Of a stretch of 64,000 nucleotides of DNA, positions 24,471-27,673 are shown one piece after another. The position numbers and the translations under genes were made by a program. This stretch comes from Halorientalis litorea (GTDB lineage Archaea; Halobacteriota; Halobacteria; Halobacteriales; Haloarculaceae): the NCBI RefSeq assembly GCF_023028225.1, contig NZ_CP095482.1:1178001-1242000 (forward strand), read 5' to 3'. The notes beneath the pieces are model-generated. The model did no database searches, was not told the DNA's origin, and saw only the letters and a program-made list of their open reading frames with translations. Position 1 is the first letter of the stretch. Each line of letters opens with the position of its first letter.

Positions 24471-24481
24471 GTTATATTCCA
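24471..24481 (+). promoter_or_regulatory. TATA box and half operator of the Bat-type regulator
   Basis: GTTATATTCCA contains a TATA element 20-29 nt before the ATG at 24500. Its ATATTCCA part repeats one arm of the palindrome in the promoter of the metal ATPase at 25259-25272, which would fit autoregulation by the encoded regulator. Confidence 0.5.
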
Positions 24482-24499: not shown

Positions 24500-25249
24500 A
24501 TGCGCGAACTCGTCTTCGCACTCGAGTACGAGTCCGGGTGCAACAGGGTGGCCGACACGCTCGCGAGTCACCCGGACGCCCGGATTCGCTCGCTCTCGCT
24601 GCACGCCACGGCCGAGAGCCTCTGGCGCGTCGACCACGCGACGGGGACGCCGGACGCGCTCGCCGCTATCGAGGACGCCTTCCTCGACACGGACTACTAC
24701 GCAGACTGTCTCGCCACCGAGGACTGCAACGCCACCCAGACCACCGAAGTGCTCGACCACACGGACGAGACACTCGTCCTCTACTCCCACTGGGAGCGGA
24801 CGCCCACCTGCGCGTCCGTACCCCACATCGCACGCGACCACCTCGGCGACGGCGTGCTGTTCGAGACGCGCCACGAGGGGCGACACTACACGTGGCGCGT
24901 CATCCACTCCGGTGCGGGCGACGTGGGCGCGTTCTTCGACGCCCTCGAGGCGGCTGTCGGCGACTGCGCCCGGATGGAGATGCTGCGGACGGCGGACACC
25001 GCGGCACCCGCGGGCGACACCGACGGCGAACGACGTGGCCTCTCCCCCGAACAGGAGGCCGCGCTCCGGGCCGCCGTCGAACACGGCTACTACGAGTCAC
25101 CCCGTGCCGTCGATGTCGGTGAACTCGCCGCCCACCTCGACGTCCCGCGGTCGACGCTCACCTATCGCCTGCGGCGGGCCGAAGAGACGTTGGCGAAGCG
25201 GTACGTCGCCGACACGCGACTCCCGACGGAACTCGCCCCACAGCTGTGA
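24500..25249 (+). CDS. Bat-type HTH transcriptional regulator
   Basis: This 249-aa protein ends in a bacterioopsin-activator HTH_10 domain: [30 protein letters not shown] followed by the recognition part [19 protein letters not shown] (quoted in parts). The N-terminal 180 residues form a ligand-sensing region with several cysteines and histidines ([28 protein letters not shown]), possible metal ligands. The ATG at 24500 starts [10 protein letters not shown], typical of this class. It sits 60 bp upstream of a zinc/cadmium P-type ATPase on the same strand, so a metal-responsive control of that pump is likely, though not shown. Confidence 0.85.
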
Positions 25250-25258
25250 GCATCGCGT

Positions 25259-25272
25259 TTGGAATATTCCAA
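25259..25272 (+). promoter_or_regulatory. Perfect 14-bp palindrome in the metal-ATPase promoter
   Basis: TTGGAATATTCCAA is a perfect inverted repeat. Its centre is about 44 nt before the GTG start of the ATPase gene and just upstream of a weak TATA element (CCTTATTC, 25278-25285). In archaea this is the usual position of activator sites. It is the best candidate operator for the adjacent Bat-type regulator. Confidence 0.6.
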
Positions 25273-25309
25273 CTAACCCTTATTCAGTCGACGGTCCTAC
25301 GGGCAGGTA

Positions 25310-27673
25310 GTGACCGACGAGAGAGACGCGACGGACGAGGGTGGCGAGTACCGGGAGGGAACCGCCCAACTCGTCGTCCCCGAGATGGACTGTCCGTCCT
25401 GTGCGGGGAAAGTCGACAAGAGCCTCGCGCGTGTCGACGGCGTCGTCGATACCACGCTCCAGCCGACCACCGGCAACGTCTCCGTCACGTACGACGCCGA
25501 CCGCATCGACGAAGGCGACGTGACCGCCGCCATCGAGGGTGCCGGCTACGACGTCCTCGGGGCCGACGTGTCCGACCCCGACGAATCCGAAGACGGCGTC
25601 GATATCGCGCCGCCGACTGAAGTGTGGACGAGTCCACGGGCGCGCAAGACGTGGGCCGGTGCCGTCCTCGTGACGCTCGGCCTGCTCTTCGAGTTCGTCC
25701 TCACGGGGAGCAACGTCGACGTGGCGAGCGTCCTCGACGCCTCGCTCGCACTCGCGGACGTGCTGTTCCTCGGTGCCGTCGCCGTCAGCGGGCTTCCGGT
25801 CGTCCGGAGCGGCTACTACTCCGCGCGGAACCGGAACCTCGACATCGACCTGCTGATGGGGACGGCCATCGTCGCCGCCACCGGTATCGGCTACTTCGTC
25901 GAAGCCGCCACGCTCGCGGTGCTTTTCAGCATCGCCGAGTTGCTGGAGGACTACGCGATGGACAGGGCCCGCGACTCCCTGCGCGAGTTGATGGAGTTGT
26001 CGCCCGACGAGGCCACTGTCCGGCGGGAGGGCGAGGAGGTGACCGTCCCGGCGGACGACGTGGCCGTCGGCGAGACAGTCGTCGTCCGCCCCGGCGACAA
26101 GGTGCCGCTCGACGGGTCGGTCGTCGAGGGGGAGAGTGCCGTCGACGAGTCACCGATTACCGGCGAGAGCGTCCCCGTCGACAAGGGGTCGGGCGACGAG
26201 GTGTACGCCGGGTCGATAAACGATACGGGCTATCTCGAAGTGACGGTCACGTCGACGGCGGGCGATTCCACGCTCTCGCGCATCATCGAGATGGTGCAGG
26301 GGGCACAGGCGAAACAGACCGAAACCGAGCAGTTCGTCGACCGGTTCGCGGGCTACTACACGCCGGCCGTCGTCGTCCTCGCGATTCTGACCGCCGCCGT
26401 CCCGCCGCTCGTCATCGCCGACCCCGTTTCGGTCGGCGCGGCGGGCTACGCGGTCACCTTCACCGGCGACTGGGGGACGTGGTTCGTCCGCGGCCTCACC
26501 CTGCTTGTCATCGCCTGTCCGTGTGCGTTCGTCATCTCGACGCCCGTCTCCGTCGTCTCTGGCGTCACCAGCGCGGGCAAGAACGGCGTCCTCGTGAAAG
26601 GAGGCAACCACCTCGAAGCGATGGGCAACGTCGACGCCGTCGCCCTCGACAAGACGGGCACGCTCACGCGGGGCGAACTCGCCGTCACCGACGTGGTGCC
26701 GCTCGGCGACACCGACGAGAGGACCCTGCTCCGACGCGCCGCCGGGTTGGAACGGCGCAGCGAACACCCCATCGCCGAGGCGATTCTCGCCCGTGCCGAG
26801 GACGCCGGCGTCGGCGACGTGCCGGACCCCGTGGCGTTCGAGAACCTGCCCGGCGAAGGTATCCGCGGGGAGTTCGACGGCGAGACGTACTACGCGGGCA
26901 AGCCGTCGCTGTTCGAGGAACTGGGCTTTGCGTTCTCCCGAGGGACGGGTAGCGGGGCCGCGGACCTGCAGTCCGACGGCGGCACGACCCCCGAGAGTGC
27001 CGTCGCGGGCGGTGACGGTGCGTTCGCCGCGGACACCCTCGCCACGCTGGAGCAGGAGGGGAAGACGGTGGTGCTCGTCGGCACGGAGACGGAGCTACTG
27101 GGGGCCATCGCCATCGCCGACGAGGTGCGTCCGGCATCGAAGCGGGCCGTCGAGCGACTGCAGGAACTGGGCGTCGCGCGCGTCGTGATGCTGACCGGCG
27201 ACAACGAGGGGACGGCGCGGGCCATCGCCGAACAGGTCGGCGTCGACGAGTACCGCGCGGAACTCCTGCCCGACGAGAAGGTGGCCGCCGTCGAGTCGCT
27301 GCAGGCGGCGTACGGCGAGGTGGCGATGGTCGGCGACGGCATCAACGACGCGCCCGCCCTCGCCACCGCCGACGTCGGCATCGCTATGGGCGCGGCAGGT
27401 ACCGACACCGCGCTCGAAACCGCCGACATCGCCCTGATGGGTGACGACATCGGGAAACTGCCGTACCTCTACGCGCTGTCGCACACGGCCAACGGCGTCA
27501 TCCGGCAGAACATCTGGGCGAGTCTCGGCGTGAAGGCGGTGCTCGCGCTGGGCGTGCCGCTGGGGCTGGTGAGCGTCGCCGTCGCCGTCGTCGTCGGCGA
27601 CATGGGGATGAGCCTCGGCGTGACCGGCAACGCGATGCGACTCGCGCGGGTCGACCCCGAGCGGTTCGCCTGA
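25310..27673 (+). CDS. zntA: Zinc/cadmium-type heavy-metal P1B ATPase
   Basis: This 787-aa membrane pump exports a soft divalent metal. An N-terminal HMA domain has MDCPSCAGKV (C28, C31). The transmembrane metal site CPC is at residues 403-405, the phosphorylated D447 is in DKTGTLT, the actuator has TGES, and the hinge has GDGINDAPAL. Near the C terminus SLGVK (K742) and GDMGMSL (D764) are the residues that mark the P1B-2 class for Zn2+, Cd2+ and Pb2+ rather than copper. About 45 residues between 540 and 590 form a Gly/Asp-rich insertion in the nucleotide domain. It starts at GTG 25310, downstream of a palindromic operator candidate and a regulator gene. Confidence 0.93.
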   Translation: MTDERDATDEGGEYREGTAQLVVPEMDCPSCAGKVDKSLARVDGVVDTTLQPTTGNVSVTYDADRIDEGDVTAAIEGAGYDVLGADVSDPDESEDGVDIAPPTEVWTSPRARKTWAGAVLVTLGLLFEFVLTGSNVDVASVLDASLALADVLFLGAVAVSGLPVVRSGYYSARNRNLDIDLLMGTAIVAATGIGYFVEAATLAVLFSIAELLEDYAMDRARDSLRELMELSPDEATVRREGEEVTVPADDVAVGETVVVRPGDKVPLDGSVVEGESAVDESPITGESVPVDKGSGDEVYAGSINDTGYLEVTVTSTAGDSTLSRIIEMVQGAQAKQTETEQFVDRFAGYYTPAVVVLAILTAAVPPLVIADPVSVGAAGYAVTFTGDWGTWFVRGLTLLVIACPCAFVISTPVSVVSGVTSAGKNGVLVKGGNHLEAMGNVDAVALDKTGTLTRGELAVTDVVPLGDTDERTLLRRAAGLERRSEHPIAEAILARAEDAGVGDVPDPVAFENLPGEGIRGEFDGETYYAGKPSLFEELGFAFSRGTGSGAADLQSDGGTTPESAVAGGDGAFAADTLATLEQEGKTVVLVGTETELLGAIAIADEVRPASKRAVERLQELGVARVVMLTGDNEGTARAIAEQVGVDEYRAELLPDEKVAAVESLQAAYGEVAMVGDGINDAPALATADVGIAMGAAGTDTALETADIALMGDDIGKLPYLYALSHTANGVIRQNIWASLGVKAVLALGVPLGLVSVAVAVVVGDMGMSLGVTGNAMRLARVDPERFA

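Follow-up and report, generated by a model that had tools for sequence, protein, structure and literature searches.

We analysed a 64,000-nt stretch of the Halorientalis litorea genome (the window), in which a gene for a predicted DNA-binding regulator precedes a gene for a heavy-metal ATPase. Reading downstream from the regulator, a perfect palindrome comes first, followed by a CTAACCCTTATT promoter stretch and the GTG start codon of the pump. The features concerned are as follows.

24474-24481, plus strand: non-conserved half-site ATATTCCA, probably a chance occurrence, overlapping the TATA box of the regulator gene
24500-25249, plus strand: regulator gene (249 residues), with Pfam domains HVO_2928_N (residues 3-166) and HTH_10 (residues 181-232), Bat type
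25259-25272, no strand assigned: candidate operator, perfect palindrome TTGGAATATTCCAA, located, for a leaderless pump mRNA, at about -51 to -38
25273-25284, plus strand: putative basal promoter of the pump, BRE-like CTAAC and then TTAT (25280-25283, -30 to -27), assigned from the sequence and the aligned consensus CcAAGGCTTATCGA
25310-27673, plus strand: target gene, a P1B heavy-metal ATPase, Zn/Cd-like by family scores, with a GTG start and one N-terminal HMA domain

The pump has 787 residues, and its CPC motif at 403, together with a score of 507 bits (against 313.5) for the Cd family TIGR01512, places it among the P1B Zn/Cd ATPases. It also scores just above the cut-off of the Cu subfamily TIGR01511 (402.5 against 397), and it falls short of the ZntA equivalog models NF033775 (451.6 against 1240) and NF008262 (536.9 against 1005). 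In the regulator, the Pfam scan found only HVO_2928_N (PF24281; 211.1 bits, cut-off 27), HTH_10 (PF04967; 55.5 bits, cut-off 23.1) and an overlapping HTH_30 below its cut-off. The HTH_10 DNA-binding domain is shared with Bat, the bacterio-opsin activator. However, the protein is not Bat proper, since the scan shows neither PAS nor GAF; it also differs from Bat in its N-terminal domain and in having a palindromic TTGG-N6-CCAA site.

A preliminary description of this locus had credited the regulator with Cys/His-rich sensing segments, and seven such residues (H35, H46, C70, C76, C104, H109 and H136) are indeed invariant in the 60 aligned clade A proteins. Three of them, C70, C76 and C104, are found in most of the distant relatives as well (88-100% of group C); because they are kept even in relatives whose fetched loci lack such a pump, they may be structural. 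Other positions are distributed by clade: clade A is distinguished by H125, H129 and H136 (97, 83 and 100%) and clade B by a Cys at 80, and a Cys at 34, absent from A, is found in B, B2 and most of C. This is the pattern that a clade-tuned metal sensor might show. An AlphaFold2 model built from 35 sequences reached a mean pLDDT of 72.6 (moderate confidence), and a fold search with it gave no usable match for the N-terminal domain among solved structures. On the basis of the conserved Cys/His residues and the genomic linkage to a metal pump, we predict that the protein is a metalloregulator; in the 15 plasmid records listed, its annotation is no more specific than 'helix-turn-helix domain-containing protein'.

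The palindrome is exact at 25259-25272, and its centre lies 44.5 nt before the ATPase start, in agreement with the roughly 44 nt given in the preliminary description. With 13 perfect 14-nt palindromes in the window, such a palindrome per se is within chance expectation. The sequence of this one is beyond chance. It is the only AT-rich palindrome of the 13, and even with two mismatches allowed TTGGAATATTCCAA is matched nowhere else in the window, where shuffled sequence predicts 0.01 matches. The genome as a whole (3.21 Mb, five contigs) holds two copies at up to two mismatches, each between an HTH_10 regulator and a P1B pump. The second copy is on a 110-kb contig, where the regulator is 81% identical to that of the window and the pump is next to it. 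Searching the same genome for the motif, a check that the preliminary description had proposed, thus yielded one further site, again at a regulator-pump pair, and no wider regulon at up to two mismatches.

In the window, 37 nt separate the end of the palindrome from the pump GTG at 25310. This spacing is almost invariant among 139 loci of group A (78 of 79 from named haloarchaeal genomes, 61 of 62 from another genome set), being 37 nt in 132, 38 nt in three, 36 nt in three and 39 nt in one; the two loci missed by the spacing script, L083 and L173, do carry the site. The script favoured an in-frame start at 36-39 nt if one was present, and starts were listed separately without that preference. 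Raw locus counts overstate independence, because many loci are recent copies of each other; given that the two sets have species in common and that identical regulator DNA occurs across genera, the number to trust is that of the 72 nonredundant loci, 65 of which have the 37-nt spacing. The palindrome carries 1.80 bits per column (the outer four bases at each end being part of the search pattern) against 0.13 in the preceding 30 nt, and the block on its 3′ side aligns to the consensus CcAAGGCTTATCGA. Excerpts of PMC4983044 give TTWT as the haloarchaeal TATA motif and CGAAA as the BRE, and report that 72% of protein-coding transcripts in Haloferax volcanii are leaderless. Since TTAT fits TTWT and leaderless transcripts are common, we place TTAT at -30 to -27 and the palindrome at -51 to -38, adjoining the putative BRE and TATA box, an activator-like position.

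The position of the site is tied to the pump rather than to the regulator. At four loci (L063, L064, L065 and L073) the regulator is 1-5 kb away and the spacing to the pump is kept; at three others (L120, L121 and L027) an insert of about 200-360 nt between regulator and pump leaves the palindrome-pump distance unchanged. At L066, L085 and L086, the regulator precedes an ATPase only 40-43% identical to that of the window, with TTAGAATATTCCAA at 37 nt; the L085 ATPase is of the Cd subfamily too. These distances bear on whether the palindrome is instead a transcription terminator or RNA hairpin that ends the regulator gene, as its frequent location 4-50 nt after the regulator stop codon might suggest. 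Between site and regulator there may be anything from about 0 to 4.7 kb, and because the site can be kilobases from the regulator while remaining near-constant relative to the pump start, we consider a terminator barely credible; moreover, a 14-nt palindrome with neither loop nor T-run would make a poor one.

Some loci carry the site in multiple copies before the pump. Six tandem operator copies in 35-nt steps are found at L073 (1311-1499; the same place as L193, from Halopiger goleimassiliensis), about 2 kb from the regulator, and paired copies exactly 22 nt apart, or about two helical turns, are found at L080, L081 and L082.

Across 195 genomes of the order, TTGGAATATTCCAA occurs exactly 57 times, in 50 genomes, and its reversed control does not occur. 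Regulator positions were taken from the matches listed, which comprise at most 14 candidates per genome in most genomes and leave out the partial match G040:C85. Among these matches, a regulator of at least 60% identity shares the contig with 56 of the 57 exact sites. The distance from its 3′ end is at most 100 nt for 49 sites and at most 400 nt for 52; of the other four, three are 3′ of the regulator by 1.1-4.7 kb and one is 411 nt to its 5′ side. The 57th site (in G126) adjoins a 37%-identical relative. Random placement would put roughly 0.01 sites within 400 nt 3′ of a regulator, as against the 52 of 57 found there, and we therefore ruled out a chance palindrome.

The same association is seen when starting from the regulator. 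There are 77 regulators among the matches listed, 21 of which lack an exact copy of the palindrome. The 19 of these that were fetched (all except G119:C2 and G085:C122) include 17 with a variant of up to three mismatches near a pump, one (L084) with a different core, and one (L079) with neither pump nor palindrome within the fetched stretch. In the named set of 80 regulator loci, the palindrome is exact in 64, has one mismatch in 12 and two in one; of the three loci with no site at up to two mismatches, two have TTGGAAATATCCAA or TTGGATATTTCCAA, and at the other the contig ends inside the gene. The preliminary description had named absence of the motif at orthologous loci as what would tell against an operator; the motif is present at these loci.

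A survey starting from the pump, covering 57 genomes of the family, found the palindrome at up to two mismatches in 26 of the best 30 pump loci. Two of the others (L277 and L279) combine a 51-59% identical regulator with TTGGCGTGCGCCAA, and the remaining two (L271 and L274) are without a site, in genomes that lack a regulator orthologue; the best regulator match is at 33% identity in one and has E = 1.5e-8 in the other, the second of these genomes being only 81% complete. Among more distant pumps, of 56-62% identity and with no linked regulator, all 20 that were fetched lacked the palindrome; one of these, L295, has TTGGTACACACCAA. Proximity alone cannot name the binder of a site, and at L275 (G210, contig C78, 1656-2310), where the regulator match is broken into two pieces in different frames, the pump palindrome is intact. 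Nevertheless, we think it highly unlikely that the palindrome belongs to another DNA-binding protein and that the HTH_10 regulator is a mere neighbour: nearly all order-wide sites share a contig with a regulator, the site-less family pumps and the 20 homologous pumps described above have no orthologous or linked regulator, respectively, and the class of the core tracks the regulator clade, as described below. We conclude that TTGGAATATTCCAA, at the pump promoter, very probably serves the adjacent regulator as its operator.

The regulator-pump pair appears to have spread recently by horizontal transfer, given the second copy on the 110-kb contig, the identical genes across genera and 35 plasmid records with a regulator relative of at least 60% identity. 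Regulator DNA can be identical between genera, and the named loci include six groups of identical regulator genes; eight named loci (L175, L176 and L178-L183) in Halorussus, Halorubrum, Halorhabdus and Haloarcula share one identical regulator gene. A separate arrangement is found at L062 (3483-4366): the regulator there is 37% identical and is flanked by TTGGAACATACCAA, 36 nt ahead of its own start, and by TTGGAATATTCCAA beyond its end. Judged by eye only, the ORFs that follow resemble an ABC transporter.

One arm of the palindrome recurs at the regulator's own promoter, and the preliminary description had taken this as a sign of self-repression. The half-site ATATTCCA is present in the window, where it overlaps a TTAT (24472-24475) that precedes the regulator ATG (24500) by 25-28 nt, but it is not conserved. 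Of 76 distinct loci (78 rows minus L047 and L087, in which the regulator is cut or frameshifted; the half-site flagged at L047 stems from the pump promoter), one has it in the 80 nt that precede the regulator start, and none of the 80 named loci has it upstream of the regulator. Among the loci examined, it lies over the regulator TATA box in the H. litorea genome only. We conclude that this half-site is probably due to chance. Since it is found at no other regulator promoter examined, self-repression through ATATTCCA is unsupported, and we rejected it as an autorepressor site.

Regulators of clade B (about 55% identity) are associated with a different core: 12 of 14 loci carry TTGGCGYRCGCCAA or, in one case, the one-base variant TTGGCGTGTGCCAA, and the other two (L098 and L099) were not matched. 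These 12 loci and L084 make up 13 sites of this type, all at 37 nt from the pump. L084 is sister to clade A in a quick tree (SH-aLRT 91; the chosen outgroup is not one clade) and yet its site is of B type; the AATATT core is thus likely to have originated on the stem of clade A. On its own, TTGGCGYRCGCCAA was rejected as a specific pattern, being present in 28 of 195 genomes with the reversed control in 16. Fifteen of its 28 places are 3′ of a 53-61% identical regulator, five are 0.2-1.3 kb 5′ of a 40-42% relative, and eight are on contigs with no listed regulator.

The two core classes coincide with a difference at residue 221 of the recognition helix, which is Thr in 57, Ala in two and Asn in one of 60 clade A proteins, and Ser in all 15 aligned clade B proteins, L084 and L277. 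This suggests that 221 may be a specificity residue. Ser221 is also present in six group C proteins, four of which have a TTGGCGYRCGCCAA-like site (1-2 mismatches) before their own start, at -23 in L125, L126 and L128 and at -26 in L136; the remaining two have degenerate sites only. We hold a single-residue code at 221 as a working hypothesis only, since the T/S change occurs once on the tree and other positions changed alongside; positions 206, 207 and 229 also mostly differ between clades A and B. Where residue 221 of a group A regulator is Ala or Asn (L081, L083, L078, L147 and L194), the site still begins TTGGA, and L140 has Ser221 but a TGTGTA core. No site was detected at L139, one of three B2 loci, or for the other Gly217 proteins, L122 and L124.

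A TTGG-N6-CCAA-like site lies just 5′ of the regulator's own start at L123, L125, L126, L127, L128 and L136. At -23 to -10, the group C site has a repressor-like location, the place expected for autorepression. A broader reading, which we regard as possible if somewhat doubtful, is that TTGG-N6-CCAA is a general operator frame of HVO_2928_N/HTH_10 proteins whose six-base core is set by a few recognition-helix residues, and that it would act in two ways, by activation from upstream of TATA on metal pumps and, in another clade, by autorepression from downstream of TATA. The code proposed within this reading would pair Arg217 and Thr221 with AATATT-like cores, Arg217 and Ser221 with CGYRCG, and Gly217 with TGTGTA. 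If true, operators could be predicted from this frame for many uncharacterised haloarchaeal regulators.

The group C sites also bear on the main rival to activation, namely that the same regulator uses the same operator at TTGGAATATTCCAA for repression, with the apo-regulator beside the BRE blocking TFB until metal releases it. Their repressor-like location lends this reading some support, and, because the palindrome ends where the BRE starts, a bound dimer could hinder TFB. However, the site overlaps neither the TATA box nor the presumed start of transcription. The upstream activating site of bop, the target of Bat, is likewise directly 5′ of the basal promoter elements, and its place matches that of the palindrome. 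Furthermore, the characterised proteins NarO, DmsR and Bat are described as activators in excerpts of PMC11218638. We therefore consider repression unlikely.

The data support the proposal of the preliminary description that the palindrome is an operator: it is a conserved, operator-like element that is present at orthologous loci in a fixed position relative to the pump and its promoter, co-occurs with a Bat-type (HTH_10) regulator and diverges with it, having another core in the sister clade. The likely mechanism is one of activation, in which a dimer of the neighbouring HVO_2928_N/HTH_10 regulator would bind the palindrome, with one HTH on each TTGGAAT half, and conserved Cys/His residues of the N-terminal domain would sense an excess of Zn(II)/Cd(II)-type metal. 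The metal-bound regulator, directly upstream of the BRE and TATA box, would then aid TFB/TBP, which would start leaderless transcription of the P1B metal-efflux ATPase. We infer each of these steps, from binding and dimerisation through metal sensing and the leaderless start to activation over repression, from sequence comparison.

ZntR/MerR and ArsR/CadC are local metalloregulators of P1B pumps. Excerpts of PMC3600143 describe an Lrp/TRASH activator of yvgX (printed there as VNG1197C). All of these are likewise dedicated to a P1B metal-efflux ATPase but belong to protein families unrelated to the regulator of the window. Closer in architecture are the NarO/DmsR-type HTH_10 regulators of anaerobic respiration, which, according to excerpts of PMC11218638, are similarly Bat-like without PAS or GAF and are associated with an inverted-repeat promoter motif, CGAAYATDKTYG for denitrification promoters, whose binder those excerpts leave unsettled. 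As described, they differ from the window's regulator in motif, genes and signal. In the literature searched, including excerpts of PMC11218638, PMC3600143, PMC9240420, PMC4983044 and PMC8303175, the operator is not described and the regulator has no reported function; HVO_2928 is named within a list of antisense RNAs (excerpt of PMC8303175). A literature search with three operator strings gave no match.

An HTH_10 regulator, a P1B pump and a local operator are each of a known kind; the pairing of this regulator with the pump, the operator and its two classes appear to be new. Haloarchaeal genomes encode many HTH_10 proteins, and one branch of these would thereby gain an operator of two classes, together with a target gene and a promoter geometry. 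The pump promoter is, in addition, a candidate metal-inducible promoter for haloarchaeal genetics.
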